This document shows positions 21,584-57,218 of a DNA stretch of 64,000 nt, in pieces (position 1 is the first letter of the stretch; every line of letters starts with the position of its first letter). Below the pieces are notes generated by a model. The model was given only the letters and a program-made list of their open reading frames with translations, was not told where the DNA came from and made no database searches. A program made the position numbers and the translations under genes. Source of the stretch: Mauremys mutica (Eukaryota > Chordata > Testudines > Geoemydidae); contig NC_059082.1 in NCBI RefSeq assembly GCF_020497125.1, positions 30,278,965 to 30,342,964 of the forward strand, in the 5' to 3' direction.

Positions 21584-21591
21584 GCAGAAAC

Positions 21592-26659: not shown

Positions 26660-26698
26660 CTAGTAATAGGGACATATACTGCTACTGGTTAGGTCTTC

Positions 26699-28113: not shown

Positions 28114-28310
28114 TCAGGGCACTTCCATCTTCAAAGTATTTTACAGATAATAACTCATCTTCACATTGCTCCTGTGAGATAGGTAGGTATTATTATATGT
28201 GGGGAAACTGAGGCACAATATTGTCATACATGAACTGTTAAAGGCAAGAGAGAAGTCAATGTGACAGATAAGATTAGAAACCATAATCCCTGTATCCCCT
28301 CAATTTCTTA
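28114..28310 (-). mobile_element. CORE-SINE (MIR-like) fragment, inverted
   Basis: The segment reads CTCCTGTGAGATAGGTAGGTATTATT and then GGGGAAACTGAGGCACA, the inverted core and tail of a MIR-type SINE. The tRNA-like head is weakly preserved. Confidence 0.65.
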
Positions 28311-28636
28311 GTGAATGACGTCCATTACCTCCCACTGGGTGGCCTTCATTATAATTTGGTTAATCTGGACTAAACAGATGCCAAGACAGCAACTTTAAAA
28401 AAAATGCTAAGGAAGATTGGCAGCAGCAGTGCAGCATCATATTCTGTGGGCTCAGCACCCTGGAGACCTCTATGAATTTATTAGTTTGATGCAAGTGTTG
28501 TCACATACTGATTTTTACTAATACCGCCAATGGCCAAGGTGAAGAAAATGAATGGCAATTAGCACTGGATAAATGGCTGCTTTGTGTTTAAAATGATATA
28601 AAGAGCTCTATTTAAAACACAGAATCCTTCACATAC

Positions 28637-28839
28637 TCAGTCCCCGGTCACGCTCATCCTGGTCCCCTTCTTGTTTCTTCCTACAGCGACAGCAAAGGCG
28701 GATGATGATTATGTAGAGGTGGCTGAAGATGATCATAGGTGGAGGTAGGACAGGTCTGTCATGGAATGTCATGATCAGCTGATATCGCTGGAATTTCCAA
28801 ACTTGGTTGGATATGGACTTCACTTCAAAGAAGGTATTG
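28637..28839 (-). CDS. TRPM1: TRPM1 exon: TRP helix and post-TRP region
   Basis: A 203-bp exon with a CTTGCAG acceptor and GTATGT donor. Together with the preceding exon it gives [20 protein letters not shown], the TRP helix with the invariant WKFQR that lies under the gate, then [20 protein letters not shown] and the basic RLCCRCRKK stretch. These are residues 574-641. The TRP helix couples the pore to cytoplasmic domains and lipid. Confidence 0.97.
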
Positions 28840-29142
28840 CTGCAAGAGAGGTTATTGTTAGGTGTATTGTTTTCCATTAGGTTCTGATGATCCTTTGCCA
28901 TAAACAAGCATGCAATTAAAAATACAAAGGATATTAAATAGCAGTCTGAGTTCAGATACAATAATTTGACATGAATTGCTGAGTTGTGTAGCCAATCATT
29001 TCAGCAGTTATTATAAAGCCTGGAGGCTCTAGTTGGAAGAGACTGTTAAGACTGCTGATTAAGTTGAACTGATAATTTAACTATCCTTTTGACTGTTCTA
29101 GAACAGCAGCACACTCCTCCCCAGAAGGCTATCCTTTTAGAA

Positions 29143-29610
29143 CAGTGGTTCTCAAAAACTTATTTGATCTGCCCCCTTTCTTTGTGTCTGTAGTCGTTTA
29201 TGTGCCCTCCTCCCCCCGCACAAATACATATTCCGTCACCCAGCTCTGAAGGCAGAGCAGAAAGCAGCGGCTGCTGGGTGGATGCTCAGCTCTGAATGCA
29301 GTGCCATGCCAGCAGCAGCTCACAAGTAAGGGTGGCAATGTGAAAGTTGATATTCATCAATATCACTTTTTACAGCAGACTTAGTGCCCCATTGCCACTC
29401 TTACTTCTGTTCTGTACTTCTGTGCTGCAGCTGATGGCCGGAGACCCACTACCTCCTGGCGAGGGATTGGGGCAGGGAGGAAGGGAACGAGGGCCTGAGC
29501 CTGGGCTGCCTGGGGGGATGGGGACCCTTTATCCCTGTCTCCTGCATATGCATGGTCCTTCCACACAAGACCCAGCTACCTGGGGCTGACAGCCAGAGCT
29601 CTTTAAAAAA
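29143..29610. mobile_element. hAT left-end fragment (CAGTGGTTCTCAAA)
   Basis: Begins CAGTGGTTCTCAAA, a common hAT terminus, preceded by TTTTAGAA. The matching right end (TTTGAGAACCACTG) is not found nearby, so the right boundary given is approximate and the element looks truncated. The interior is GC-rich and non-coding. Confidence 0.5.
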
Positions 29611-30679
29611 AAAGAACAGAGCTTGCATCTTCCAGGACACATTCCTGCACTTCCATTGGGAGGTCTGCCATTTTAGAATGTTTGCCCCAGTATATAAAAC
29701 CTCTCAGCAGTCATGGAGAAAAATAAGCTCTGCAAAAATATATACATCACACTCCTATTTTGAAGCATGGTTATAAACAAAGTGCTGCTAATAACACATC
29801 CCAGTGTTTGATGTTACACAGAGTATTAAACACATGAAAGGTATTTTGTATAATAAAACTCAGAAGCTTCACAAGGCATATCCTGATCAGCTTGACCTAA
29901 ATAGCAGACTTTTTTCTAAAGCAATCACAAAATGTCCTCACTTCAAACTTCAATTCATACAAACTTCTCCACTTCAGAACAGAACACAGATACTTGCAAA
30001 GAGCTGTTCTTAGAAGCCAAAGATTTTCATTTTTGCCATCAAACCAGGTGTGTTGTTAAAAGAAAATATTTAGGAGTTCAGTGGATTTGGAGGGGTAGAA
30101 AAGGGACAGTGCTAGACCCAGAGACTAATAATAGACTCTCTTATATCAACTGAAAGCAAGTCATGCAGCTCTGAATGTGATGTGAAACTTTTCAAGCTAT
30201 TTTAGTGTCCCCAAATACTCTATTTTTCCTAAACCATCAAAGGTTATATAAGCACTTCCTTTAAGAAAAAATTCTAACCATTTCTTTTCTGACTTGCTGT
30301 GTTTTAAAATTCTTACATACTGTTTTGTGAAAGTAATTAAAACATGACTACAATAAAACATGAATGTCATAGTTTCTTATGGCTAGGAATATGTGCATTT
30401 ATATTACCATTGATACTGGCCAATTTGGCTTTATTCTACTATCTTCTCCATTGCAAGAGTTCTCTGGCTGAATATTATCATCTGCCATTATGCTGCTGAC
30501 AAGCGTTAACAGCATGACCTACTTCCTAAACTGCTGATTCTTTGGTCTTTTCTGTCAATAGTAACTGACGTATGTAAGGGTTTTTTTTCCCAGTATGTGA
30601 CTGGCATTTTAGTTCATTAAAATTCAAGCTACCTCCTAACTACATACACTTTGTGAAGTATACATTCCTGGGCATGACA

Positions 30680-30883
30680 TAGGGTGACCAGATGAGAGGA
30701 AGAAAATATCGGGACACATTGGGGGCGGGGGGGTCCGCCGACAGAGCAAATAAAAACAACGAGTGTTGCCGGCGGCGCAAACAAACAAACAAACAAAAAA
30801 CCGTGTGCTGCTGGCGGAGTGAAATATCAGGACAAATTGCGTCCCGACCAAAGATTGACCGACCTAAATATCTGGTCACCCTA
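30680..30883. mobile_element. TAGGGTGACCAGAT MITE, copy 1
   Basis: Terminal inverted repeats TAGGGTGACCAGAT / ATCTGGTCACCCTA match base for base. The flanks GCATGACA (30672-30679 and 30884-30891) are a perfect 8-bp duplication. The 204-bp interior carries an (AAAC)n run and short CCGGCGG motifs and differs from the two other copies (32838 and 38228), so the ends are shared but the middle is not. Confidence 0.92.
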
Positions 30884-31092
30884 GCATGACATGTAAACTA
30901 GGTATCATGCCCAGCAAAATGCGATCTACCTATGCCTGCAAGCACTGCAAAGCTGTATATACATGGGGAACACCACTTCATTTGTATCTCCACGAGGTGG
31001 TGCTTCTGACTGTGACTTAGTAGTAGCAGTCATTTCTAGCGTTCCCTCCCATCCCACCCCCATGTCATGATGGGAAAAACATCCAGGGTACC

Positions 31093-31554
31093 TGTGACTG
31101 GGCCAGCCATCTCCCCCGCGCCCCCCACCCATGGCCTAGGGTCACACTACAAGCAGATTGCCTCAGTTTCCCTTCTTGGACTGTTCAAGAAACTAATAAA
31201 ACACTTTTGCCCATTCTCATCCCTTCTTAGATTGTGTCCTATTAAATTAACAAACATTCAGAATAAAAGTTTTCAAGTCCATCCAGTCTACACAAAACAA
31301 AGGCTTCTCTTTCTCCTCCCTGCTTTGGCAGCCCACTCCCAGACGCCACCTGGCTGGAGTCTCAGTCCTTACTCCCAGGGCTCACTGCTAGAGCCTGCTC
31401 CCTCCCAGCAGCCTCTAATCCCCAGGCAGCCTCTAATCCCTCCCAGCAGCCTCTAATCCCCTTCCTTATAGCCTCTTTGCTGCTGATCTCTTCAGGTGGG
31501 GCTGTAATCAAGGTTGGCTACCTGCACCTTTCAAGGGTGAACCACTCTGTTACA
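31093..31554. mobile_element. Solo LTR in TRPM1 intron
   Basis: A 462-bp block from TGTGACTGGG to CTCTGTTACA, flanked by GTACC on both sides (31088-31092 and 31555-31559). TG...CA ends and a 5-bp duplication indicate a solo LTR. AATAAA strings occur near 31197 and 31262 on the plus strand, but a TATA-like GCTATAAGG appears on the minus strand, so orientation is left open. A short CAGCCTCTAATCCC motif repeats three times (about 31407-31460). Confidence 0.8.
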
Positions 31555-31689
31555 GTACCCAATGTAAAGAGGAAGTGGTAGAAGTGGATAAAAATTCCTT
31601 GGTTTTGCTTTCTGACTGTCAATGACAGGAATATAAATGATCAGTTTGATCATTGTGATTATCGGTTTTGCATTCCGGACACCTCTCAC

Positions 31690-32465
31690 CAGGGCCATCC
31701 CTAGCTATTCTGGGGCCATACGCAACCCCTCGCATGGGATGTGTGTGTGTGGCCCTAGGCCGCCGTGGGGGGGGGGAAGGGAACCACCCCCCCAGCACTC
31801 ACCAGCAGTGTGGCTGGGGCCAGGTCGCTGCTCTTCCCGCCACCGGTGAGTGCAGGCCCGGCCCTGCTGCAGTCCTCAGGGAAATGGGGGGTGGGACTGG
31901 GGCAGAGCAGGGGTGGGGTGGGTGCGGAACAGGGCAGAGGCTTTGAAGAAAGGGTGGAGTGGGGGCAGAGCAGGGGTGGGAAGAGGCGGGGCTGGGGCTG
32001 GAGCAGCATGCAGCTGCTCGGGGCATCAGAAAATTTGGTGCCCCACATTTCCTGGTGCCCTGCGCAGCTGTGTACTTTGTGTATGGGTAGGGATGACCAG
32101 GGCCGGCTCCAGACCCCAGCGCGCCAAGCGTGCGCTTGGGGCGACATTTTGCCAGCAGGGCGGCAGGCAGCTCCGGCGGACCTTCCGCAGTCATGCCTGC
32201 GGGAGGTCCACCGGAGCCGCGGGACCAGCGGACCTCCCGCAGGTATGACTGCGGAGGGTTCGCTGGTCCCACGGTTCGGGTGGACCTCCCGCAGGCATGG
32301 CTGCGGATGCTCCACCGGAGCCGGGGGACCAGCGCACCCTCCGCAGGCACGTCTGCAAGAGGTCCCCCGGAGCCGCGGGACCGGCGACCGGCAGCGCGCT
32401 CCCTGTGGCATGCCGCCCTGCTTGGGGCGGCCAAATTCCTAGAGCCGCCCCTGGGGATGACACTG
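31690..32465. mobile_element. hAT element split by a second hAT
   Basis: The left end CAGGGCCATCCCTA pairs with the inverted right end CAGTGTCATCCCTA. Outside lie CCTCTCAC (31682-31689) and CCTCTCAG (32466-32473), an 8-bp duplication with one change. The inner element at 32098-32453 is inserted within the right terminal repeat; its own duplication GGGATGAC is part of that repeat. Without the insert and one duplication copy the outer element is 412 bp. Open frames on both strands here are compositional. Confidence 0.85.
32098..32453. mobile_element. hAT MITE nested in another hAT
   Basis: Ends CAGGGCCGGCTCCAG / CTAGAGCCGCCCCTG, with perfect 8-bp duplications GGGATGAC at 32090-32097 and 32454-32461. 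The interior repeats a roughly 60-bp motif with CCGCAGGCATGCCTGCGG-type palindromes (GACCTCCCGCAGG and similar). It belongs to the same family as 47637-47932 and 21592-21762. It is non-coding and younger than its host element. Confidence 0.92.
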
Positions 32466-32837
32466 CCTCTCAGGCTAGCCGTAAAACTACACAAGGCTTA
32501 GGCAGTTTATAAGCATCTTTTATCTGGTTTCAACTGCGGAGCAGGGGTGAGTCCTTTTCTGGGAGACATTCTACTCACATCAAGTCTTACCTTCTCTTCT
32601 AGTGACCCCTGAATTCCATCCTGCTGGACTACTAGTATATTTTGCAAAGTCAGTATAGCAATTGATGTACCTGGGATGGAACTGTCTTACATCTGAACAA
32701 CAATAACCACTGCAACTTCAGTGAAATTCACTTGTTTAAACATAGTCGGTAGAGGCTGAAGTGGCTGCTAGGAACTAGTGTCACTTAGTATTAGGCATCA
32801 TGGCACTGTGATTCCTAGCAGTCACTTCAGTTGCTTC

Positions 32838-32960
32838 TAGGGTGACCAGATGTCCCGATTTTATAGACAGTCTCCCGATTTTTGGGTCTTTTTCTTATAT
32901 AGGCTCCTATTACCCTCCACTCCCGTCCTGATTTTTCACATTTGCTGTCTGGTCACTCGA
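32838..32960. mobile_element. TAGGGTGACCAGAT MITE, copy 2
   Basis: Starts TAGGGTGACCAGATGTCCCG and ends CTGTCTGGTCACTCGA, a mutated form of the inverted end. The interior (CCCGATTTTATAGACAGTC, TTTTTGGGTC, ATAGGCTCCTATTA) matches copy 3 at 38228 in inverted orientation. No clear target duplication remains. Confidence 0.75.
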
Positions 32961-34453
<1,493 letters not shown>

Positions 34454-34789
34454 CTAGGACAATTATCCATGTTAAAAGTTTATTTCCAATAGAACCAAAT
34501 GGAGTTTTTGGGCCAAATTCAGCTGCCAGTTACACCATGTAAATGCAAAATAACCTCCCCTCATAGTGAATAGTTATTCCAGATTTGTGGTGATGTAACC
34601 GAGATTAGAATTTAGCCCTTAGGACATTTAGATTTTTTCCCCCAATAGCAAAACTGGATCTAGGAAGAGATCTCATAACTCTAAGCACATGTAAACCTTT
34701 CAATACCAGAATAAAAAAAGAACCACTTAAAAGTGGAGAATGAAGCCCATATGGGGAAATCTGAAGTTGCTGCAGGGTGTGGAAACTAG

Positions 34790-34955
34790 GGCTACGTACA
34801 CACTACAATTTAAGTCGGTATAAGTTACGCCACTCAGGGGCTGAAGTAGTTAAGTCGATGGGGAGAGCTCTTGTCTGTCGACTTAGAGCATCTGCACTAG
34901 CAGCGCTACCGTGATGCAGCTGCAGTGCTGCAAGCTCTATAGTGTAGCCACAGCC
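34790..34955. mobile_element. TIR element with TAG duplication (Harbinger-like)
   Basis: Left GGCTACGTACACACTA and inverted right end GGCTGTGGCTACACTA form an imperfect inverted repeat. TAG lies on both sides (34787-34789 and 34956-34958), a 3-bp duplication like that of PIF/Harbinger elements. Non-coding, 166 bp. Confidence 0.6.
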
Positions 34956-35520
34956 TAGATAGTTAAGCTTCCTCCCTCCCAAAACCCCCAGTTAGACTGT
35001 AAGTTCTTTGTCAATGGCAAAACTCCTATTGCGTTCAATGGTGCAGGATCAGAAGTATTCATCAGTGAGATTTAAAACTATACAGGGACTAAAAACCTAA
35101 TATGAGAGGCAAACAAGTGGCAAGACACCTAAAAGGGGCCAGTAGATGGGGACTAAGTTCTGAAAATCAGGGCCGTTTAAGATATCTCCAGTCAGGCACC
35201 CAAAGTCACTAGTTACTTTTGAAGATATTGGCCTGTGAATCACGTTTGAAAAGTAAGGGCTTGTGTATATGGTAGGTAATGTGCTATACAGGGGTGTGAT
35301 TTCTAAAGCACAGTAACATGCTGTGCATTAATTGGTCTGTATAGACCCTGCTAGTGTGCATTAAAGATCCCCCCCAGTGCACTTTTAAGTGCTCGAAACA
35401 GTACTACGTTAAAGTGCACTAGTGCATGCCAACAGGGTCTACACGAACCAATTAAGTGCAATAAGTTAGTGTGCTTTAGAAATCACACCCTTGTAGAGTG
35501 CATTCCCCCACCATTTAGAC

Positions 35521-36539
35521 CAGGGGTCTCAAACTCAAATGATCACGAGGGCCGCATCACTGACACCCCCATCCTCACTGCCTCTGGCCCCGCCCCCACT
35601 CCACCCCTTCCATGAGGCTCCGCCCCTGCCTCGTCTCTTCTCCACCTCCTCCCCCGAGTGCGCGGCTCCCTGCTCCTCCCCCCTGGAAAGTGCTAAGTGC
35701 CACCAACAGCTGTTTGGCGGCTTGGCGGTGGGAAGAGCCTGGAGGTAGAAGAGTAATATAGTAGTATAGTATTAAAATATAGTATGCTATTAAAAGTCAA
35801 TTTATTAACTTTTTTATTAACTTATTTAACTGTAATGTGAAAAGTCAGTGCTAATTTTGACAGTCATTTCATTTTTGGCCACTTAGCTGGCAGCGTTTTG
35901 CATCAACCAGAGCATCAGTAATAGGTTTGATATCCTGAGACGAAACCAATCTCAGTGTTGCTTTCAAATGCTCATCAGTGAGCCTTGACCTTAACACAGA
36001 TTTGTTAATCTTCATGGAAGAGAAAAACTGTTCACATATATATGTACTTCCAAACATTGCCATTATCCTTGCGGAAGCAGAGAATAACATGGGAAATCTT
36101 CCTTGTGAAAGAAACCTGTAGAATTCTGGAATTCCAACATCTGTATACTTCTGCTTCAAAATGGTGTCACACTGAAGCTCCACTAACTCCATCTGCATTT
36201 CCGAAGGCTCTGGGAGGGAGTTTGGATGGGGGTGAGGGAGGGAGTCTGGGATGCAGACTCTGGGATGGAGTTTGGGTGCTGGGTGCAGGTTCTGGGCTGG
36301 GGCAGGGGTTGGGGGTGCAGGCTCTGGGATGGAGTTTGGGGATAGGAGGGGGTGCAGTGCAGGGGTGAGGGTTTGGGGCTCGGGATGAGCACGCGGGGAG
36401 CTTAGCTGCCATATAAAATAACTCGGTGGGGGGTGAAGGCAGTTTGGCGGCAACAGGAAGTAACTGGGGAGGGAGAGGGCGCAGGGAGCTTGGCAGGCTG
36501 CAGGGAAGAGCTCCGCGGGCCGTGTGTTTGAGACCCCTG
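35521..36539 (-). mobile_element. 1-kb hAT with transposase remnant
   Basis: Ends CAGGGGTCTCAAACTCAAA and TGTTTGAGACCCCTG are inverted repeats. ATTTAGAC on both sides (35513-35520 and 36540-36547) is a perfect 8-bp duplication. It contains the C-terminal part of a hAT transposase on the minus strand (35869-36198) and a G-rich repeated stretch (GGGATGGAGTTTGGG motifs, about 36210-36400). It is an internal-deletion derivative of an autonomous hAT. Confidence 0.92.
35869..36198 (-). pseudogene. hAT transposase C-terminal remnant
   Basis: About 109 residues on the minus strand resemble the end of hAT transposases, including the hATC dimerisation region: FPMLFSASARIMAMFGSTYI, then CEQFFSSMKINKSVLRSRL and TDEHLKATLRL, ending with a stop at 35869. 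Similar strings occur in domesticated hAT-derived vertebrate proteins of the ZBED5/GTF2IRD2 type. The catalytic core and DNA-binding domain are missing. The open frame continues upstream to 36549 only through low-complexity repeat and past the element's end, so no intact gene is claimed. Confidence 0.8.
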
Positions 36540-36552
36540 ATTTAGACAAGCC

Positions 36553-37364
36553 TTAAGTTTGTTCTTACTTTAAATATAGTTCCAGTTAATTTGGTTTCAA
36601 ACCCTGGGCTGGATCCTACAAACACTTACCATTAGGTGGAACACTTTACAGTGGCAAGTACTCTCCCACTGAAGTCTTATAAAAGACACTGTGCCCAGCA
36701 GTAATTTTTTGCAAGATCTGGTTTGCCAGCATAAACTGAACCAATTTATTTTAAAAGTGTTTGCAAAAACTAACATTCTCAACCTCTTTTGAAGATAAGG
36801 TTTTTAGGTGATTTGAAATCAGCTTGATCCTGTCTACACTCGCCTGAAAACACATATTTACGTCTTGTTTAGCCAGAACCATATTTAAAGAAAGTTCGAA
36901 CTTGGTTTCCAAACATGGTACCAAATTATACACTAATCCTGTATTTCTGGTTATCATGTGGAAACTGGACATGGAAAGTCAAGTACATCTCAAAAACACG
37001 AGTACCCAACTAGCTTTTTAAAATGTTAATGTAGAACTTGGATAATCAAAGGAAATTAAATTCTCTGTGTGCAACAACTCACATAATATAATTTAAAAAG
37101 GATCATTGTGGTGGTAACTCAATAGAATGTACAAAAATGTTGGCACTTAATTGCAAATCAATAAAGTAGTACCCAATCAGTTCTTTTTATAATTAAAAAA
37201 ATTCCCTGCTTCTTTGATACTTGAAATCAATTCAGTAGAAGAACAAAAATCTGACATCTGAATTTTGTCAGAACACTATAATTAAAATACCAATATCCAG
37301 GGAAGAAAAAGACTAATGAACGCATTTAACTAAATGAGTTAATCAGCTCCCCACATAGACTTAC
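36553..37364. other. TRPM1 intron before the microexon
   Basis: AT-rich intron sequence. No repeat family or exon was recognised. Confidence 0.4.
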
Positions 37365-37385
37365 GATTGATTTCCATGGCATAGA
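37365..37385 (-). CDS. TRPM1: TRPM1 21-bp pore-loop microexon (LYAMEIN)
   Basis: Minus-strand TCTATGCCATGGAAATCAATC lies between a GTGTAG acceptor and a GTAAGT donor. Joined to the C left by the upstream exon it reads L-Y-A-M-E-I-N and leaves a C that completes a proline with the next exon. Human TRPM1 has the same heptad after ADQID. Skipping keeps the frame and gives ...QIDPPCG..., the arrangement of TRPM3. The residues lie in the extracellular loop just beyond the selectivity filter. Confidence 0.93.
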
Positions 37386-38219
37386 CTACACAGCAATTTG
37401 AAAGCAAAAAAAAGGAAAGAAAACAACAGAATAATAGGGGGGAAAAAAAAACAAATGACTGACAATACAGTAGCTGTTTTGCTGCCAAGAATAGATAAGC
37501 AACTTAAATATCAGAACAGTAGAGACATATGCTTAGAAACAAAGGCTTTGTTAGAGTTACATTACATTCTGCAATTTCCTTTTCACTTTGTCTTCCCCAA
37601 ATGCTACATATGGCAGCAAATTCATGACAGTAAAAATAAATCACAAAATGATGCTGGCAGATGATCCTTTAAATATACAAGATTTATCAGTAAAACACAA
37701 TTGATAGTCACCACAAACAAAACAACACAAAGTTACCACACAAACTTAATCTTTCAGCTATTACAGAAACGAACTTCCTCCTGTTTCCTGGAAGCAGAGT
37801 CCTTTGCTGCCTGCTTCCTTTTCTATTATCATTCTATATTAAAACGATCAATAGCTATGATACAAATATATTGTTATAGTATCTAATATCATTAAAATCT
37901 AATTTGATTAGCATTATGGGTACTGTGTGCCTGTCCTTAGAAAGTCTTAAGCGGGATCACCCTACTTCTGCTTATGAATTTGATCCTGCTAAGTACTAAA
38001 TGCTTCTGATTTCATGCTCATGTGGCTCTTTTACATTGTAGCATTGGAGTGAATTTCATCCTTAGGGCAAAATCCTGGCTTCATTGAAGTCAACTGCAAA
38101 ATCCCATTTGACTACAGTGGTGCCAGAGTTTTATCTTTGATGTACAGTTGTGGCAAAGGAAAGTAACAAAGCAATGCATTTTACTGAACTACTGAAAGGG
38201 GAACAGGATATGGTACTTT
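37386..38219. other. TRPM1 intron, no recognised feature
   Basis: AT-rich intron sequence between the microexon and the MITE at 38228. Nothing was recognised. Confidence 0.4.
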
Positions 38220-38227
38220 CCCATAAA

Positions 38228-38351
38228 TAGGGTGACCAGAAAGCAAGTGTGAAAAGTCGGGATAGGGAATGGGGGGTAATAGATGCCTATAAAAGACAAA
38301 GCCCCAAATATCGTGACTGTCTCTATAAAATCGGGACATCTGGTCACCTTA
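38228..38351. mobile_element. TAGGGTGACCAGAT MITE, copy 3
   Basis: Starts TAGGGTGACCAGA and ends TCTGGTCACCTTA. CCCATAAA on both sides (38220-38227 and 38352-38359) is a perfect 8-bp duplication. The interior is the inverted form of copy 2 at 32838. It is 124 bp and non-coding. Confidence 0.92.
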
Positions 38352-38530
38352 CCCATAAATCATTTAAGTGTGGCAAAAGGACCTCACCGTATCTGACATA
38401 TTGGTTGGATTGCCTACTGTAGTCACACCCAGGTAAATTGTTAAGGGGAGCTTACTTACAGTCATGGGAAGATTAGATTGAGACCTATTGTCTTTGAAAG
38501 CAGAATGGTCTTTAGAAAGTAGGTGCCTAT

Positions 38531-38814
38531 GGGCTTGTCTACACAGGAAAGTTATACCTGTTTAAGCTAATTGTGAACTTTTAACTGATATAACTTCTCA
38601 TGTGGACATTTTTATTTCAGTGCAAGAAATAAAACTTTTTCCAATTTTGATTGTGTTGCTTTGGAAGCAGTTTAAGGTAAGCTGAATAAATCCATTTTTA
38701 TTCTGAAATAAGAGTGTTCGCATAGAGATTTATATAAGAATAACTACATCAGTTTAACTATACCAATAACACTATACTAGTATAACTGGAAAAATCTCTC
38801 TTATAGATAAGCCC
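38531..38814. mobile_element. TIR element, GGGCTTGTCTACA family
   Basis: Left end GGGCTTGTCTACACAGGAAA and inverted right end GGGCTTATCTATAAGAGA form a diverged inverted repeat. Internal pairs such as GATATAACTTC / AGTATAACTGG are seen. The flanks TAT and TGT nearly match as a 3-bp duplication. It is related to 10877-11096. Confidence 0.6.
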
Positions 38815-39475
38815 TGTGTAACCTACCTTTTGTTAGACCCCAAGTGGTCTTTCACCTAGCTGAGGTAGGATTTTCTGAGTCCTTGGCTAATCACATTTTC
38901 CCACAATAGGACTTTATGTTGTATAGTCGGGGTCTGATTGAAGCAGAGATCAGAGCTGGGACAGTGCATGTAAAGCAAGATACAGAGATAGGGAGAGCTT
39001 GGCAACAGGTGCTGAGACCAGTATATGTTTTGGCTGACTTTTGAGAAAAACAGACCTGTCTACATGGGACTTTGCTGTTGCTTTTACCATCTGTGTTCAA
39101 GATGAATAGGAATCTGTGTACATACTGTGAATCACATGGACTGCAGCAATATTCTCAATTTTTGCCTTAGTCATTTCCTCTCAACATGAGAATCAACCCA
39201 TCTGAGACTTAGCCAGACCACGTAGAAGCTGGGGCAGCACGTAATACGTAACTGGGTTGACCCAAATATTTCCAAGAACAATTTCACATATTGTAAGTTA
39301 CAGTAATATGATGATAATTTATGAGGGAAAGGAAGAAGAAAAGAGTGTTTCGGTGTCCCATCTAAACAAAACATCACTACAACAATGTAACTGCAGGACC
39401 AGATTAATGGCACAGCCCATATAGCCATTTCCTCCCTCCTATGTGGCAGGGAGTTCTGACCACTAATGATTAGAC

Positions 39476-39950
39476 CAGGGGTGGGCAAACTTTTTGGCCT
39501 GAGGGCTGCATCGGGTTTTGTAAATTGTATGGAGGGCCGGTTAGGGGAAGGGGTCGTGGCCCGGGCCCCACCTCCTATCTGCCCCCCCCCCGGGACTCCT
39601 GCCCCATCCAACCCCCCTATTCCCTGACAGCCCCCCTAGGACTCCTGCCCCATCCACCCCCCCCACTCCCTGTCCCCTGACTGCCCCCGGACTCCCGCCA
39701 CCCCTTCCAACCCCTCCTCTCATTCCTGACACCTCCCCGGGACTCCTGCCCCCTCCAACCACCCCTTTTCCCTGTCCCCTGACTTCCCCTGGAATCCCTG
39801 CCCCTGACTGCCCCCTGCCACTCCATCCAACCCCCCCTCCTTCCTGACTGCCCTCCCCAGGACCACTGCCCCCATTCAACCCCCTGTCTCCCCCCGACTG
39901 CCCTTCCCCGATCCACACCCCCGCCCCCTGACCACCCTCCGAACTCCCTA
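39476..39950. mobile_element. hAT left end plus C-rich minisatellite
   Basis: Begins CAGGGGTGGGCAAACTTTTT, a hAT-type end. From about 39545 it becomes an imperfect C-rich tandem of units around GGGACTCCTGCCCCATCCAACCCCC... with CCCTGACTGCCC. The right terminal repeat and target duplication are not found, so the right edge is approximate. Long minus-strand frames here are compositional. Confidence 0.6.
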
Positions 39951-40513
39951 CTAAAGGCCATGTTTTGTCCTCAGATAGAGGTGCCAGGAGCTCCCAGTGA
40001 GTTCAAGGTGGCCAAAGCAAGGCTATGGCCCTATAAAGGTTGAGGATGGAGCTATGATATATTTGGGAATAGTTTTCTCTCTTTTCTCCTTGATTTTACT
40101 CCCCATTCCTACTTAATACACTTCATCCTGATCAAAACTAACTGGAATTACTGCTGCTAGATTTCAGCATTCTTAACTTCAGTGTGTTGCTGAGCCACAA
40201 AATCAGAGCAAAGGGCCACTTTGGTAATATTACATTTTGTAAACAGTCCAAATAGTATTTTCACATTTTAAAGTATTACCAATTTTTATTATTAGCCCTG
40301 TTTCTTGCCCCTCCATTTCATTCCTTTGTTAACAACAAGCATCTGCATTCCCAGCTGATATCACAGCTCATCCTCCAGCTGGCAGGGCTCATGTTTTGAT
40401 AGATACTGCCCTACCCCCAGAAATGAAGGGAGCCAGGACATTTGTGATATATCCAGACTGTCTGGAAAAAGGATGGTATCAAAAGTTATTCATCACCTGA
40501 AATACTCTAGGAA

Positions 40514-40628
40514 CATATGTTCTAAACTTGTGGAGTCATAACCAAAAGTCAGGAAGTTGTGACCACCCGAGCTTCACATATTGCTAAGGGAAGGGGCTCT
40601 GTACTGAACAGGTTGAGAACCCTTGTTC
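40514..40628. mobile_element. Possible short hAT remnant
   Basis: Left CATATGTTCTAAACTTGTGG and right CAGGTTGAGAACCCTTG roughly resemble inverted hAT ends of the GGTTCTCAAC type. A target duplication is not clear, so this is a weak call. Confidence 0.35.
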
Positions 40629-40670
40629 TAGAGCATGTGCAGACCTATGACTCCACAATTAATTCTTATA

Positions 40671-40780
40671 GGCCCCATTTCAGGAAAGCATGTGTTTAAG
40701 TCCCATTGAAGTCAATAGGGTTTAAACATGAATTTAGAAGTTAAGCTTGTGCTTAAGTGCTTTCCTGAATCAGAGTCTGG
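40671..40780. repeat. Fold-back repeat, second copy
   Basis: GGCCCCATTTCAGGAAAGCA mirrors TGCTTTCCTGAATCAGAGTCTGG, with inner CCCATTGAAGTCAATAGGG. It is the same family as 10115-10252, partly diverged. Confidence 0.65.
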
Positions 40781-41126
40781 TGATGAACCAGGTTCAACAG
40801 TAACTCAAGGATTATCTCTTCTTGACCCATCTAAGGAAGGGGAGCATCTCAGAGATGATATTCTTAACATCCAAGATTGGCGAGCGTTTCAGATTGCACC
40901 ACTCTCAACAGTAATTGAAATAGAACATATGCTGACGAGTAGAGGATTCCCATTGGTACTCTGGTGGGGAGGAGAAAGTGACGTTTGGAAGTCTGGAATC
41001 TGCCACAAAAGCAACCAAAGACAAACATACTAATTCCAAATTAAAAACAGTCATTTTCATTAATTTGGATCTGATCATCTGCCTCAGAAACAGGAAACAG
41101 AATCTTACTATGAATTCTACTCTTAC

Positions 41127-41301
41127 GGTCTATCTGGTCTGCAAACACCTCTCCGTAGATCATCCAGTAGGGCATATAGAAGATGTTGCGGGCTAGTCTC
41201 CAAGAGGGCTCCTCATCTGGGTGCAGGATAGCTTGGCGGGCTACTCCAAAACTCATCAGAACCACAAGCATGATGACCACAAAGTACAGCATGTCAATCA
41301 T
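41127..41301 (-). CDS. TRPM1: TRPM1 exon: S5, pore helix and selectivity filter
   Basis: A 175-bp exon with a GTCCAG acceptor and GTAAGA donor, leaving one base of a codon. It encodes [20 protein letters not shown] (S5), [14 protein letters not shown], then [18 protein letters not shown]: pore helix and filter (residues 461-518). The YGEVFADQ filter acids are those of TRPM1 and TRPM3. The downstream exon choice (37365 or 34215) changes the loop right after this filter. Confidence 0.97.
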
Positions 41302-43442
<2,141 letters not shown>

Positions 43443-44306
43443 CTAAAAACAAACGGAAAAAATCCTGAAGAAAATCTGTGGAGTGCATTTTTTAAATAAT
43501 GGTGGTGAGACAGAGGGCAGTCTGACTGGGTGTAATGGGTTTCATCAGGACTACTTACGTGTTGAGCAGGATTTGCTCCTGCAGCAGAGCACATCGCTGC
43601 TTATAGACTCCATTTAATTTTTCTATTTTGACCCAACTTTCGTTTAACCAAAGGATTTCATCATTGTCAGTTAATTCACCGGCTGTGGCCCATTAACTTT
43701 TTGTCCACATTTATGTCCAAATCAAAATGATATGAGGTGTTTATTTTAGGAACATGGTGGGCCAGAGGGGAAACAGACTGGGAGGGAACTACAGTGGGGT
43801 GAATTGATTTGGCAGTGGGGTTTTTGTGCTGTGCTACCAATCTGTAAGAGCCGAGATGATAATGAATTAAATACTACTGCGAATTTACAGATAAAACACG
43901 TTCCTCCCTCCCAACCTCTTCATCATACACCATAACTGATCAATGCAACATACATTAATTGTGCATAACAGGAGGCTATTTAGGGATTATATCCTCATGC
44001 CTCCCAGGGAAATACACATAAGAAAGGGGCAGTGAATTCAGGAAACTGCAAAAATGACCTAATGGAATTTTTGACTGCTCTTTTGCTCAGGCAGGAGGGT
44101 TCTGAGAGCCCTGGAGTGGGTAGTGCCATGAAGTCCCCCGGCACTAGCATGGATTTGGAGGAGGTGCAGGGAAGGGAATCTCTTGCCTCATGCAAGGCTT
44201 GCCTGTCTACACTACTCCTCCAGCCCCCATTCACCATTTATTTATAAATGACAAGTTCTTCCCCACGATAACGTAAAATAGCAGTTATTGGTGCGATTCA
44301 CATTAC
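43443..44306. other. TRPM1 intron, no recognised feature
   Basis: Intron sequence. No repeat family or exon was recognised. Confidence 0.4.
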
Positions 44307-44435
44307 CTCTCTTACTTTCTCTAAAGCCAGAGTCACAATATAGGAGATGACAATCCATTCCTGGAGCGAGGGCCAGCGGTCCATCCGCACCAAGATTATA
44401 TAATTGAACAGCATTAGGTAACCCAGGTATGATAT
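44307..44435 (-). CDS. TRPM1: TRPM1 exon: end of S1 and S2
   Basis: A 129-bp exon with a TTCCAG acceptor and GTAATG donor, both phase 0. It encodes [20 protein letters not shown] (end of S1 and loop) and [19 protein letters not shown] (S2), residues 334-376. Confidence 0.97.
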
Positions 44436-44682
44436 CTGGAAAAAAGAATCCTTTATGTCCATGGACTCTAGGCATTAGTGTGCAGGGCTGTTACACAGTA
44501 ACTGCTTTGTCCATGGCTGCATAGACAGAATTTAGTTACTTGAGATCATTCCAGAATTTGTACACAAAGTCATTTGCAGAAAGTTTAAATGTATAAAGTA
44601 CAGAACATAAGTGTAAATCAGCAGAAACATACCTAATATTCAGGAAAATATTCATAATTGTCCACTAATTTTGGATTTCAAG

Positions 44683-45037
44683 TTTCATAGATATCAAGGC
44701 CAGAAGGGACCTTGTGAGCATCTAGACTGACCTCCTGTATAGCACAGGCCATAAAACTTCCCAAAATAATTCCTAGAACAGATCTTTTAGAAAAGCATGC
44801 AATCTTGATTTTAAAATTGCCAGTGATGGAGAGTCCACCACAATCCTTGGTAAATTGTTCCAACGGTTAATTACTCACCTTATTTCCAGTCTAAATTTGT
44901 CTAGCTTCAACTTCCAGTCATTGGATCATGTTATACCTTTGTTTGCTAGATTGAAGAGACCATTATTAAATATTTATTCCCTATGTAGGTACTTATGGAC
45001 TGCAATCAATTCATCCCTTGGTCTTTTCTTGATGCTA
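44683..45037 (-). mobile_element. CR1-type LINE 3' end, inverted
   Basis: The sequence CATAGATATCAAGGCCAGAAGGGACC through GGAGAGTCCACCACAATCCTTGG to CAATCAATTCATCCCTTGG is the inverted 3' end of a CR1 subfamily. It is similar in layout to 1386-1550 but a different lineage. It is a 5'-truncated copy. Confidence 0.75.
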
Positions 45038-45162
45038 GGGGCTGATTTTCAAAATATACTGAGTGCTTACAACCTTAATGAAAGTCAAATGGGGAAATAA
45101 TGGCCACAGGTGTCACAAGCTCAAAGTCCAGAATGAGAGAAGACCTTTTAACTTTTTGGTAT

Positions 45163-45745
45163 TGTGATAAAGTTTCTCCTCTACCTTGGTGGGTCCTGCG
45201 CTTATTGGCGGATTTTGCTAGCCTCAGAGATCTTCCTGTGATGGATCAGGAGTTGGGGGGAACCCAGGCCCGCCCTCTACCCCACGTTCTAGCCCAGGGC
45301 CCTGTGGACTGCAGCTTTCTACAGTGCATCCTGGTACAGCTACACGACAGCTACAATTCTCTGGGCTACTTCCCCCATGGCCTCCTCCCAACACCTTCTT
45401 TGTCCTCACCACAGGACCTTCCTCCTGATGTCTGTTAACGCTTGTACTCCTCAGTCCTCCAGCAGCACGTCCTCTCACTCCCAGCTCCTTACGCACACCT
45501 CACTAACTGGAGTGAGAGCCTTTTTATACCAGGTGTCCTGATTAGCCTTAATTAATTCTAGTAACTTCCCAATTGGCTACAGGTGTCCTAATTAGCCTGC
45601 CTGCCTTAATTAGTTCTAGAAAGTTCCTGAGAGTTCTGGAATAGTCCCTGTTATCTTACCCAGGGAAAAGGGACCTGCTTAACCTGGAGCTAATGTATCT
45701 ACCTTCGACCACTCTCTTGTAGCCATCTGGCCTGACCCTGTCACA
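45163..45745 (-). mobile_element. Solo LTR in TRPM1 intron
   Basis: A 583-bp block reads TGTGACAGGGTCAGG...TTTATCACA on the minus strand, with GTAT on both sides (45159-45162 and 45746-45749). A TATA-like GGTATAAAAAGG lies at about 45515-45526 on the minus strand, which sets orientation the same as TRPM1. No internal coding sequence is present. Its TATA box and orientation make it a possible alternative promoter, which is unproven. Confidence 0.78.
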
Positions 45746-46026
45746 GTATTTAAAAAATTAGATACAATAAAGCAGATGGAAAAACAATTTAAAAGATTTT
45801 AACTATGTCTCCTTAAGTTTTAATGGGAGTTAGACCATGTGCAATGTGAATTTTGTTATGTGCTCACATACGACGATTCATAAGAGAAACAGATGCTAAG
45901 GCCAAAGTGTATTTTGTTTATACCTGTTCTTTAAACTATATATCAAGATGTTTTCCTATTATTTTGTTTTAAATTAATATAATGTAACAAATTATTAATA
46001 ATCAAAAGTCAAGATGACTTACTCAC

Positions 46027-46158
46027 CGTGTAAAACCAGAACTTTACAATAGGTGCATTATAGAATTCATAGATCTTTTTTCCAATAGGAAGGCTCCGTT
46101 GCTTTTTGTTTCCATTCTCTTCATCTCCTTTTCGGGAGCCTGTATCAGCATTTGCATC
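46027..46158 (-). CDS. TRPM1: TRPM1 exon: cytoplasmic linker and start of S1
   Basis: A 132-bp exon with a TTCCAG acceptor and GTGAGT donor, both phase 0. It encodes [20 protein letters not shown], a charged variable linker, and [18 protein letters not shown] leading into S1 (residues 290-333). Confidence 0.96.
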
Positions 46159-46574
46159 CTGGAAGACAGAAACTGGCAGCTTGTCACCAATACAATGTCA
46201 CTTATGAGAGGTTCTTTCAATGATGATGCTCAATCATCTGTCAGCTACAGAAAACTTCCTTCTGAACAACAGGACTATTCTCTAATTATCCAGTTCCATT
46301 GCACTTTGAAAAATACAAGGTGAGGTTCTTAGCTGTTGTAAATTGGCATACCTCCACTGACCTCAATACAGCTACATCAATTTACACTGGCTGATAATGT
46401 GGCCCATATATTCCCAGTACTAGAACACACAGGGATTTGTGTTTCTACACAGGCAGGTGGCATGGTAAAGCTGCAGATTTCAATCTGAAGTGGCCAATGG
46501 CATCATTGTAGGCAAATCTGGATATTAAGTCTGCTGGAGAAGTTAAGAACATTCTGATAAGGTATAGTACCAAC

Positions 46575-46697
46575 CACATTTTCCTCCTCTTTTTCTTTGC
46601 CATCTTCATTTTCTCTTGATGTCTGATAGGAAAAATCATCAGAACTGCGAAACTCTAGAAATAGGATGGTGGGTGGGAAGAGAATCCCCATTATAAC
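46575..46697 (-). CDS. TRPM1: TRPM1 exon: pre-S1 segment
   Basis: Taken as 123 bp, with a GCCCAG acceptor, both phase 0. It encodes [20 protein letters not shown], then [20 protein letters not shown] and V (residues 249-289). The donor is unusual: GTTGGT after GTG, or three bases earlier GTGGTT. Both keep the frame, and human TRPM1 has one residue (T) here before DANAD. A better-looking GTACTA four bases further on would shift the frame. Confidence 0.93.
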
Positions 46698-47636
46698 CTG
46701 GGCAAGAAAAGAGGTATCAATTCAATGAATCATTGATTACATCATTAGATTTTGTTTAAAACAACATTATTTCTTTTGTTGCCTTCTCTGAATAACATTC
46801 AACATAATTAATATTTACACAAGCACCAGTATTACACATGGCACTATAATATATATTAAGATACAACATGGAGCTTGCTCTGGAAGACTCATCTCGGTAG
46901 ATACATTGCAATAAAACACACCAGAAGGTAAAAGTGTTGCAGGACAGAGTTCAACAGCTCAACCTCAGTGGAACAACACACAGCAGGATGGTGAGGGGAG
47001 CAGGGTTCTTTCCAAAGCTTATAAATTACATTCTGATGTGAAACAGGTGGGTTCTCAGAAGAGTTTTGAAAGAATAAAAGGGGGAAGCTTAGCAAACAAC
47101 AACTGGGAAAGCTTTCTAAGCATGAGAGATAGCATGCAAGAAGGCACATAAAGAGTTGGAGAAGGAGATGAAAGGAGTAGTGAGGGGAGGGAATGAGACT
47201 AGAAGGTTTGGGGGACATACAGATGAGGAGGATAGAACTGGAAGGTTAGGGAAGGCTGAATTGTGCATGGAAGAGGAAGGGAGATGTAACAAGGGAGAGA
47301 GATGTGATCTGAGAGAAGGGAGAGGATCATCAGCTATGACTCAAGATTTTGAGTAATTTAAGTTGGAGAGAAGTGGGAAAGTGGAAAGTGAGAGAGTTGA
47401 AGATGAGACAGGTCAAGGAGAGTGAAAAACAGAGAATGGATCAGGATGTTGGCAGGAGAAGATGAAAAATATAGATGGATTTTGTAGATGTTATGGTGTG
47501 AAAAATCAACTGGATTTGGTGATGACCTGGAAGTGAGAAAATGAGAGAGGGGTTGGAGATGACACCAATGTGACAGCCCTACATGTGGAAGGCAGTTTTA
47601 ACAATACAGGATGAGAGAAGAACGTCACCTGATAAT

Positions 47637-47932
47637 CAGGGGCGGTTCTATGTATTTTGCTGCCCCAAGCACGGCGGCTTTCGGTGGCATGCCTGAGGCA
47701 GGTCCGCTGGTAATGCGGATTTGGCAGCATGCCTGCGGGAGGTCCGCCGGTCCTGCGCCTTTGGCGTACCCACCGCCGAATTGCCACCGAAACTGCGGGA
47801 CTGGCGGACCTCCTGCAGGCATGCCACCGAAGGCAGCCTGACTGTTGCCCTCACGGCGACTGGCAGGCCGCCCCAGCTCTCCCCTCTGCTTGCCGCCCCA
47901 GGCATGTGCTTGGTGCGCTGGTGCCGCCCCTG
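47637..47932. mobile_element. hAT MITE, CAGGGGCGG family
   Basis: Ends CAGGGGCGGTTCTA and GGTGCCGCCCCTG, with perfect 8-bp duplications CTGATAAT at 47629-47636 and 47933-47940. The interior has the CTTGGGGC-type and GCCTGCGGGAGG motifs shared with 32098-32453. Open frames on both strands are compositional. Confidence 0.92.
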
Positions 47933-47940
47933 CTGATAAT

Positions 47941-49137
<1,197 letters not shown>

Positions 49138-49544
49138 TTAAGTCTGGTGCTTAAGAAGCTATTGATTGGAAATGTCATTATTGCTTGTAAAATATTTTTC
49201 ATCCTTTGATTACAGGCACTATTAAAGTTGTAATTGTCATTTTGTAAACTTCTAACATTCTAAGGACAATTATAATAAAGCCAATTACATTTGAAAGTTT
49301 TGAAGAAATTTGTTTAAAACCACTAAAAAAGCAATAAGGTACAAAGACTAACAAACTGAAGTAAGAGTGCATAGAGTAACATGTAATTTTAATTCCCTTT
49401 AAACTTATTTTTATTTTTAATCACCTTTCTTCAAACATGTCAACTTCTTTCACAGCTCATGTGAGACTGTTTGTGATCAAACTTACTTAGTAGACTGAAA
49501 CTTACCTCTTCAGAGAATTCATGTACATCAGTTAATCCTGACCT

Positions 49545-49670
49545 AGTGAGGTAAGCTAATTTTATTTTATAAAGGAGGAAACTGAGGCTGAGAGGTTAAG
49601 CAATTTTCCTAAGGCCACAGAGGGACTCCAAGATGTGATAACTCAAAAATTCCTGCCTCCCAGTCTTGTA
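49545..49670 (-). mobile_element. CORE-SINE (MIR-like) fragment, inverted
   Basis: Contains TTATAAAGGAGGAAACTGAGGCTGAGAGG and TTTTCCTAAGGCCACAGAGG, the inverted tail and core of a MIR-type SINE, like 26699 and 28114. Confidence 0.65.
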
Positions 49671-49786
49671 AGTATATCATCAAACTTCATAGATGAAAAA
49701 AGTTGGTCAGAAAAATGGGCCAAACAATCATCCCTGTGACCCACCATCTTAAAAATTAATTGCAATTGCCCCATATATACAAATTA

Positions 49787-50107
<321 letters not shown>

Positions 50108-53299: not shown

Positions 53300-53329
53300 C
53301 TCCATTCCTAAAAGTTTAAGAGCTTTTGG
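53300..53329 (-). CDS. TRPM1: TRPM1 30-bp exon (PKALKLLGME)
   Basis: A 30-bp exon between an ATGCAG acceptor and GTAAGT donor, phase 0 on both sides, encoding PKALKLLGME (residues 65-74). The same decapeptide occurs at this place in TRPM1 and TRPM3. It can be skipped without a frameshift. Confidence 0.95.
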
Positions 53330-54396
<1,067 letters not shown>

Positions 54397-56351
54397 CTAC
54401 AAAATACAAAGTGTATTTTTAGGATATAAAACAACAGTAAAGCATATACAGAGACTTGCCCTGGCTATATACAATATGACACATTTATACTCATACTTGG
54501 TAGACATTAATATTTTATTCATTATTAATATATCCATCCAGGGAAAATTTTTACTTGGGGCCAAATTCTCCTTTGGGGAGCTGTCTGTATATCCAAGGGT
54601 AGAATTTCAGCAATGGTTGTTGGTAACATATATATCAGTACAGAGTTATTTGCAGCAGTTAAATAATATGTAATAGAACTATAAATGTATCAGGGAAGGG
54701 AAGAAGACAAGAGCTTTATAGTTTTTATTATATTTCTGCTAAAATGGATACAATCACATTATTTTTAATAAATCAATGCAGCTGAAGATTTATACACATT
54801 CTGTTGGTTATGAGCTCCATGGATATTTGATGTAATTTCAGAGGTTTTCATTTTATAGATAACTTGCTTAATTTTAGTGGGGCTATCTCATGGCTGAAAG
54901 ATTAAAGTGATGACCAATCTTACTAGAGGTACGCAGTGCTAAGAAATTAAATTGAAACTGTTTTTAATTCAACAATAAAAATCAAGTGTTTATAATAGCC
55001 GTGAGGCTTGGTTCTGCAGAACCTGACTGATGAAAGTACTCTTCACATGCACGCGTAGTTCCTCTGAAGTCAATGGGACTGCTCGTGGGAGACAGGGCTT
55101 GCAGGATGGACCCCAGTGGCTTTGAGTGCTTTGAATTGAATGAATAACATTACGTTCCATGTTTGAATGGGATTTCAGTCTGCAAACTAATCTGAACAGC
55201 TTTGTCTATTTTAAGGTTTTATTCATGCAAGAATTAATTTTGCTTTTGAGATGGTTTAAAGCTGGCTTTTTGTATAATGGAGTGGGTGGGTTTTTTTCCT
55301 GTACCCCTTAATAAAAATCAAAACAAGCATTTTATTAGTACAACATTTCTGCTAATACACTGCTTGAATATTTATGATCTGTGCAATAATTTAGCGAGAT
55401 ATCATTGTAATACTCATACTCCAAATGTATACATATTACCACTAATAATTGTATACAGTACAAGATTATAAACAATTTTAATAAGTTTGATAAACTATAA
55501 ATGTACTATGCTACTAAGTATATTCAGTTATGGAGAACATTATAGTACTTGCAAACTCTATAGTATACTAGGTGCTCAGATTCCATGGTGATGAGCTTAG
55601 TAAAAGAACCTGAATATAAACAGAACTCCTATATTTAATTTACTCAACCTCAAAATGTGAGTCTCTGTGTTTTAAAATAAAAAGTGACAATTACAAATTA
55701 AAAGGGGATTGCAAATTGTGTGATTCCTCAGAGAAATCAAAGAGAAATTATCTGAATTGGACAGTATAATTTGTCCTTAAGATAAATATAATCGTTCAAT
55801 GGACTTTAGATAAGTCCCCAAATGAAGTCAATGGGAAGATTCCTATTGACTTCAGTAGACTTTGGATCAAGTCTCTGATGAGAAATCCAACTACTAAATT
55901 ACGATTTGTTTTAATTATTCTATTTATTTCAGGATAAGTCAGATTTGTTTACATTCCTTGCTTTTTAAAAAGAGAGCAATTATGTGTAGTATGCTGATAC
56001 AAGAGTTTCCTCCTGCTTGTGAAAGGGGTCAGAATACACTGTAGCTTTTCCTGTATGGATAAGTTTTTTCCCCACCTCATTATAATCTACAATTCCCAGC
56101 CCATCATGTATAGGGAAATTTGGGTTAATCTGCAGTCTAAACTTGGTAAACAAGCAGGTTGTATAACCTATATTGTAATACTGTTAAAGATTGGTTGGAC
56201 AATTACATTAAATCTCCCAGAGCTGTGACTGAACACTGTGTTTCACTGTTCTAACTGTATCCTTTTTTGCACACCACAGCAAGGTTTAGTCTAGAACACC
56301 ACTTAGCAATAAACTATGATGAAAGAGCTACATTCTAGGGAAACAAATCAC
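54397..56351. other. TRPM1 intron, no recognised feature
   Basis: AT-rich intron between the candidate cassette exon and the GNLPPDYH exon. A GAAGTCAATGGGACTGC fragment near 55064 recalls other dispersed repeats, but no boundaries are seen. Confidence 0.4.
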
Positions 56352-56387
56352 CTCCATGTTAACCCAACCAAATCCCCGAACTTGTCG
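56352..56387 (-). CDS. TRPM1: Candidate TRPM1 36-bp cassette exon (ICF-like)
   Basis: On the minus strand a pyrimidine-rich tract and CATTCAG acceptor are followed by exactly 12 codons, RQVRGFGWVNME, and a GTGATT donor. It lies between two exons that both have phase 0 here, so inclusion gives DVKK-RQVRGFGWVNME-GNLPP with no frameshift. TRPM3 has an optional 12-residue exon at this same place, which I recall as REYPGFGWIYFK; it was named ICF because variants lacking it fail as channels. Five of 12 residues agree, including GFGW. The donor is weak at +5. Not counted in the 1,115-residue product; use in transcripts is inferred. Confidence 0.72.
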
Positions 56388-57167
56388 CTGAATGAGAGTG
56401 AGCCATGGAAATGCGATGACCAGGAGGAGAAAGATGGACAGACAGATAGGAAAAATACACAGAAGAGAGTTAGTACCATTGGAAAATGTGAATAATGAAA
56501 AATTAGATAAGAATTAAACCCTGAGGTGGATCATTATGGATAATACATTGACCCAATCCTGCAAAACTTTCATGAGGAACTCTCACTGAAATCAGTTGAG
56601 GTTTTCCTTGCAATAGGAATGCAGGATATACTCTGTGTAGCAAAACAACAGATGCAAAACCCACCAAATATAGTGAATTTAACACTAAGCCTTACAATAC
56701 ATTTATATGCCGTGGATGGTAATGAATAACAGATTTATGACTTCTGACTCTGAAGAGTAGAAGTGACTTTCCCCCAGTGGAAGTGGTAGAAGTAACATTG
56801 CTTGGGAGTCTGAAAAACACAGTAGTAAATACACAGAAAGGAACAATCCTGCATTGGCAGGTAGATGGACTGGATAATGGAGTAGATATTTTCTCTAACT
56901 TCTGATTCTGCAATTTTGCCAGGAAATATTTTTCCACTGTAATGTTGTATGTAAGCTTCTTTTGATATGTAAAGAAATTAAGTATATTTAAATCTGGTCT
57001 GAGTATCTTACACTACTAGTGATTTAACTTCCCTTTCTTTAAAAACTATAATTTCATTTCAAAGTTTTATTTTCCATCTACATTATGTTCACTTCCCCCA
57101 TTGATTTGTACAATTAAAATAATCATGAAAATAAATCCCAATATCTGGAAATAATATAAAAACTTAC

Positions 57168-57218
57168 CTTTTTCACATCCCTGACTAGCAAATGCAGTGT
57201 ATTTGGTGGACCCAATCT
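57168..57218 (-). CDS. TRPM1: TRPM1 exon: first coding exon in the window
   Basis: A 51-bp exon with a CTTTCAG acceptor and GTAAGT donor, both phase 0, encoding RLGPPNTLHLLVRDVKK (residues 1-17 of the window product). This string precedes GNLPPDYH in TRPM1. The exon before it, ending near LEELYNT in the family, was not found up to 64000, so the preceding intron exceeds 6.7 kb and contains the CR1 insertion. Confidence 0.94.

Follow-up and report, generated by a model that had tools for sequence, protein, structure and literature searches.

TRPM1 is the channel by which ON-bipolar cells report light (PMC4334530; PMC4756708), and the duplication that separated it from TRPM3 has been dated to the early vertebrate genome doublings (PMC13143021). 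The closest described counterpart of the TRPM1 exon treated here is the 36-bp exon 15 of TRPM3, whose inclusion varies in the mouse retina (PMC4334530). TRPM3alpha3 contains this exon and TRPM3alpha2 is made without it (PMC6583685), and it is present in 41% of human cerebellar transcripts (PMC9886277). An earlier study observed no effect of exon 15 on channel responses and a later study some modulation (both as recounted in PMC6583685). TRPM3 constructs that omit exon 15 were rated normal, as was one that contains it; a construct combining exons 8, 15, and 17 was inactive, whereas its counterpart lacking only exon 8 worked (PMC9886277).

Two other TRPM3 segments lie close by in the protein. 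The ICF, defined as V512-T529 of mouse TRPM3alpha2, is the region whose skipping abolishes function (PMC7027284) and is located in exon 13 (PMC6583685). Exon 17 binds G-beta-gamma (PMC12799613), which also binds the N-terminus of TRPM1 (PMC4756708).

Here, a stretch of 64,000 nt from the turtle Mauremys mutica (NC_059082.1, positions 30,278,965 to 30,342,964 of the forward strand; the window) is compared with these systems. An earlier note, made from the letters of the window, had drawn attention to a 36-base segment with splice signals between two phase-0 exons of TRPM1 and had labeled it an ICF-type cassette. We consider it likely that this cassette is a real alternative exon of turtle TRPM1, skipped in most cases, which would be paralogous to TRPM3 exon 15, ancestral, and endowed with a tuning role. 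Automated gene models already contain it; the accessible literature, which leaves most subscription papers outside its scope, yielded no published description of it for TRPM1.

Gene identity and exon organization

Without the cassette, the protein encoded in the window is 98.0% identical to the Terrapene triunguis record P0121 over 1,115 aligned positions. Identity amounts to 89% for crocodile, 88% for tuatara, 87% for woodpecker, 77% for owl, and 77-79% for two mammalian TRPM1 proteins, so that eight TRPM1 proteins span 77-98%, as opposed to 52-57% for four TRPM3 proteins. Because the identities to TRPM1 lie far above those to TRPM3, the gene is, by protein comparison, turtle TRPM1, as the earlier note had assumed, from a species close to Terrapene, and TRPM3 is ruled out as its identity. 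UniRef lists P0121-P0126 and several other reptile and bird records under the name TRPM3, which is contradicted for the three that were tested (P0121, P0123, and P0125) by 88-98% identity to the window protein.

The TRPM1 coding part of the window, as rebuilt on the minus strand, spans 57218-19061, with the stop codon at 19061, and comprises 15 exons, the cassette counted (Table 1); the frame is open both with and without the 36 bp. Read directly, the minus strand at the cassette is ...ctctcattcag/CGACAAGTTCGGGGATTTGGTTGGGTTAACATGGAG/gtgatttg..., which translates in phase 0 into RQVRGFGWVNME. The cassette starts 780 nt into a 2,771-bp intron flanked by the end of the DVKK exon (57168) and the start of the GNLPP exon (54396), and both neighbors (57218-57168 and 54396-54256) are in phase 0 where they meet it. 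The turtle TRPM1 segment has the layout of TRPM3 exon 15: it is 36 bp long and in phase 0/0, with the DVKK exon on one side and the GNLPP exon on the other.

Table 1. Positions in the window of the predicted optional TRPM1 exon, its splice sites and the other coding exons of the gene.
Feature	Position	Strand	Description
Predicted optional exon, TRPM1 counterpart of TRPM3 exon 15	56352..56387	-	36 bp, phase 0/0, encodes RQVRGFGWVNME
3' splice site region of cassette	56388..56437	-	ends tctcattcag; 75% pyrimidine over -42..-3; 5 YCAY tetramers
5' splice site of cassette	56346..56354	-	GAG/gtgatt; 6/9 match to CAGgtaagt; T, not G, at +5
TRPM1 exon homologous to TRPM3 exon 14	57168..57218	-	RLGPPNTLHLLVRDVKK; donor gtaagt
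TRPM1 exon homologous to TRPM3 exon 16	54256..54396	-	starts GNLPP, ends GPKR; 47 aa
TRPM1 exon homologous to TRPM3 exon 17 (G-beta-gamma binding exon)	53300..53329	-	PKALKLLGME, 10 aa
Other 11 TRPM1 coding exons	19061..50107	-	frame intact up to stop codon

Splice sites were scored with matrices trained on the other exons of the same TRPM1 gene. Among the 148 GTs of the intron, the cassette donor ranks second; only the constitutive donor, at 57168, surpasses it, so that no other internal GT scores as high. The acceptor ranks eighth among 159 intronic AGs, seven of which score higher. Over the whole minus strand of the window, 2.1% of 3306 GTs and 2.7% of 4312 AGs reach the scores of the cassette or better. 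The AG/GT borders are of exon quality, as judged on sequence only.

The 50 nt preceding the cassette (56388-56437, minus strand) contain five YCAY tetramers, compared to none or one at the other 14 acceptors. This enrichment has a P value of 0.004 in a mononucleotide shuffle, is equaled in 10 of 12,790 windows of the strand, and concerns one of eleven motifs tried. We take the cluster to be a possible NOVA-type element; since no YCAY was seen by eye in the printed stretch flanking turtle TRPM3 exon 15, it is only a lead. In the scan for splicing-factor motifs, GCATG was absent from the 300 nt flanking the cassette on each side, and TGC from the 175 nt upstream of it.

Several other elements of the window were noted. 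A near-full-length non-LTR retrotransposon, presumably CR1-like, lies antisense in the TRPM1 intron upstream of 57218 (59676-63805, plus strand) and contains one 377-aa open reading frame (ORF) and a reverse-transcriptase-like ORF in two pieces sharing one frame. The end of a further ORF (35869-36549, minus strand) may represent a hAT-transposase dimerization domain, which it resembles. An Rfam search of the window returned no match; mir-211, we assume, is located in another TRPM1 intron upstream of the window. Four pattern matches in viral contigs were discarded, as none is a relative.

A paralogous exon in TRPM3

In the same genome, TRPM3 exon 15 is a 36-bp exon at the same place in the gene (C6:91938250-91938215) that encodes REYPGFGWIYFK. 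The two exons are identical at 22 of 36 nucleotides and have similarly imperfect donors, gtgatt in TRPM1 and gtgaat in TRPM3. Among solved structures, the rabbit TRPM3 chains 9n1g and 9n1j carry REYPGFGWIYFK at exactly the position of the cassette, and nine other full-span TRPM3 or TRPM1 sequences (e.g., 8ddr and TRPM1 9or5) are 12 residues shorter (64 versus 76 residues covered). The view that the known form of TRPM1 joins DVKK straight to the next exon accordingly holds for the solved 9or5 isoform and fails for the bird, lizard, and frog models described below.

The resemblance exceeds what chance would provide. Six open phase-0 AG-36nt-GT windows exist in the intron; the cassette obtains a BLOSUM62 score of 35 against REYPGFGWIYFK and the runner-up -11. 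None of 5000 dinucleotide shuffles of the intron reached 35 (best shuffle, 19), although two of the 5000 contained at least five identities to the TRPM3 peptide. These shuffles rule out a chance pseudo-exon, and the alignment of the R...GFGW core with REYPGFGWIYFK exceeds chance expectation. The cassette region (161 bases) matches a single place in the window's own assembly, at 100%.

By intron, length, phase, and GFGW core, the 36-bp exon is the TRPM1 counterpart, i.e., the paralogue, of TRPM3 exon 15; the earlier note had likewise compared it with an optional 12-residue TRPM3 exon at this position. The peptides differ considerably: the turtle cassette is identical at 5 of 12 residues to the common TRPM3 form, at 6 of 12 to lungfish and Zootoca TRPM3, and at 3 of 12 to Danionella TRPM3. 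Exon 15 is present in all 99 TRPM3 representatives P0022-P0120, a count biased by the cassette-bearing query, whereas 108 of the 120 listed TRPM1 representatives are without the exon.

The exon junction of TRPM1 recurs at two more TRPM loci of the genome, C11:18.94 Mb and C6:94.2 Mb. From their residues, we take these loci to be TRPM7 and TRPM6, respectively. This inferred assignment draws in part on the location of TRPM7 in the TRPM1 region, as stated in PMC13143021. No cassette-like exon of 36 nt was found in the 4.7-kb stretches searched at these loci, each of which holds 13 open AG-36-GT windows. The best scores in the matching introns were 1 and 1, versus 35 and 75, and the sole match to G[FYW][GS]W in the two stretches, GWSW, is preceded by a stop codon.

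Conservation across TRPM1 proteins

A protein search with the cassette region (best 120 of 2024 matches examined) was complemented by a second search with the TRPM1 C-terminus (best 120 of 1632 matches, 7983 candidates scored), and groups were assigned by the displayed names. Among the 120 TRPM1 representatives listed, 12 carry the exon. In 82, DVKK or a variant is followed immediately by [GS]NLPP; the junctions of the remaining 26, five of them mammalian, are different or unreadable and do not contain the exon. The carriers (P0004-P0015) are an owl, a woodpecker, Anolis, three Pogona entries, Paroedura, Eublepharis, Hyla, Hyperolius, Engystomops, and Bufo. By group, the exon is found in two of 33 birds (including P0128, an unnamed entry that we placed ourselves), six of 15 lizards, and four of 26 amphibians among the matches listed. 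It is absent from the listed representatives of turtles (0/2), crocodiles (0/1), the tuatara (0/1), snakes (0/12), and mammals (0/30), a weak form of absence, as each representative stands for a 90% cluster of up to 598 members in which other isoforms are hidden. With regard to the two turtles, Terrapene P0121 joins DVKK to GNLPP and the junction of Chrysemys P0122 is garbled.

The exon of P0004-P0015 occurs as RQSRGFGWVNME, RLARGFGWVNME, RQSGGFGWVNME, RQSRGFGWANLE, RLSRGFGWVNME, RITRGFGWVNME, and RMARGFGWVNLE, which are identical to the window at 9-11 of 12 residues. Seven of the 12 columns (R1, G5, F6, G7, W8, N10, and E12) are invariant over the eight distinct TRPM1 forms, and the consensus R..[RG]GFGW[VA]N[ML]E extends from frogs to birds. 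The models that include the exon were predicted automatically. Pogona has models both with and without it, X3 and X4 being distinguished by precisely these 12 residues and one separate pore-loop change. Judged by these models, the cassette is evolutionarily conserved in TRPM1. A search of other TRPM1 sequences for a GFGW exon, which the earlier note had suggested, succeeded in owl, woodpecker, and lizards, and gave a negative outcome for five teleost-like introns and for the listed snakes, crocodile, and tuatara.

Several further records bear on the junction. The exon was found in none of the 63 matches of a short-protein search, and in two transcript-like contigs (P0231 and P0232) as well as a TRPM1-like protein from salmon (P0241), DVKK is immediately followed by GNLPP or SNLPP. 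Five unnamed entries (P0233, P0246, P0249, P0270, and P0274), considered teleost-like by their resemblance to the salmon protein, have introns of 81-150 bp, as counted by hand from the printed translations, without the exon. Such short introns are consistent with loss of the cassette. Inserts of other kinds at the junction were not counted as the exon: 13 residues (TSMPGFSVYIYYN) in the elephant TRPM1 model P0016, 14 residues in Anolis carolinensis P0021, and VSL.. inserts, suggestive of read-through into the intron, in the Dromaius, Melopsittacus, and Apteryx models.

Alternative explanations

The earlier note had regarded the cassette as an ICF-type element, i.e., one whose inclusion or skipping would turn TRPM1 on or off. 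A TRPM3 region whose loss abolishes function does lie nearby in the protein (PMC7027284), and the earlier note had referred to a nearby optional exon; the ICF and, presumably, the cassette are optional in-frame segments of the cytosolic N-terminal half. They differ in exon, length, and sequence, and in that the ICF is needed for function. The 18 residues of the ICF, V512-T529, close exon 13, one exon ahead of the end of the DVKK exon. In the TRPM3 representative P0100, residues 512-529 read VSMHRFLTISRLEELYNT and are followed by RHGPSNTL, and precisely these 18 residues are missing from two Bos mutus TRPM3 models that retain the GFGW exon. The turtle TRPM1 equivalent, VNMQRFLTIPRLEELYNT, closes a 135-bp exon located entirely outside the window (C11:30343461-30343327, minus strand), which rules out the cassette as the ICF. 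Because the ICF is the end of its exon, its loss would make use of an internal donor instead of a cassette. The TRPM1 ICF exon (L002:363-497) has an internal GGA/GTGAAC where TRPM3 models lose the ICF, and an ICF-skipping donor might exist in TRPM1, too. The label would also predict a dead channel, against the TRPM3 data: according to PMC6583685 and PMC9886277, TRPM3 works with and without the GFGW exon, which exerts at most modest tuning, and the inactive construct with exon 15 also held exon 8, exon 15 without exon 8 being normal (PMC9886277). The TRPM1 tetramer of 9or5 was likewise solved without the cassette. Taken together, an on/off switch is highly improbable.

An unlikely but more plausible alternative is that the cassette is a relic from the TRPM1/TRPM3 ancestor which is negligibly spliced in by the turtle and heading for loss, as in some teleosts and probably mammals. 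Such decay would fit the lack of the exon in the representatives listed for turtles, the crocodile, the tuatara, snakes, and mammals, the five exon-free teleost-like introns, and the skipping in the two transcript-like contigs. However, the turtle exon matches its TRPM1 counterparts from frogs, lizards, and birds in frame, borders, and 9-11 of 12 residues, a match that would not persist if the intron drifted freely, and the donor is the strongest internal GT of its intron. Hardly any credence is given to a copy acquired from TRPM3 after the split, by gene conversion or duplication, or to an independent look-alike exon. Copying could in principle account for the common GFGW core and the identical length, yet only 22 of 36 nucleotides agree with TRPM3 exon 15 of the same genome, and the TRPM1 exons have a consensus of their own from frogs to birds; intron and phase are identical as well.

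Proposed origin and role of the TRPM1 exon

The simplest history of the conserved, probably alternative exon is a gain in the TRPM1/TRPM3 ancestor, because the exon occurs in both paralogues and was not found at the loci presumed to be TRPM6 and TRPM7; the earlier note's proposal that the exon predates the TRPM1/TRPM3 split agrees with this account. Common descent is likewise indicated by its retention in the TRPM1 of other species and its absence from the two other TRPM loci, the TRPM1 data comprising tetrapods and short teleost-like introns. The exon would have been present in the ancestor after the split from TRPM6/7 and passed on to both genes. The TRPM1 copy appears to have survived in frogs and sauropsids and to have disappeared from at least some teleosts and probably from mammals.

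Inclusion is predicted to add 12 residues to the cytosolic N-terminal half of the channel, between the segments of exon 14 and exon 16 and 47 residues before PKALKLLGME, the homologue of the G-beta-gamma-binding exon 17. Like the putatively optional cassette, TRPM3 exon 17 is a small optional in-frame exon of the same region; it differs by binding G-beta-gamma (PMC12799613) and by its place two exons downstream (53329-53300 in the turtle). In a subset of transcripts, the included exon may leave the channel working and modestly tune its agonist sensitivity and possibly its inhibition by G-proteins. Tuning appears likelier than an on/off switch of activity, because TRPM3 conducts with or without exon 15. 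A structure prediction for the N-terminal part of mouse TRPM3 with exon 15 (P0019, 737 aa, 26 rows) drew the insert as a coil between two helices at a mean pLDDT of 39.3, which is too poor to count as evidence. As the structural model is poor, the suggested effect on function relies on the analogy to TRPM3.

In a bolder and rather unlikely scenario, non-mammalian tetrapods would have kept an ancestral cassette that lets ON-bipolar cells or melanocytes tune TRPM1 by splicing, e.g., in its mGluR6-dependent G-protein inhibition via the neighboring exon 17 site, and its loss in mammals would have hidden it from work on mouse and human. As for TRPM3 exon 15, the TRPM1 exon bears on its age and offers a separately evolving copy that shows which residues selection keeps (GFGW, N, and E in TRPM1). 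Given a conserved, probably optional segment that is found in none of the 30 listed mammals, the TRPM1 of birds, lizards, frogs, and probably turtles may have an unstudied form.
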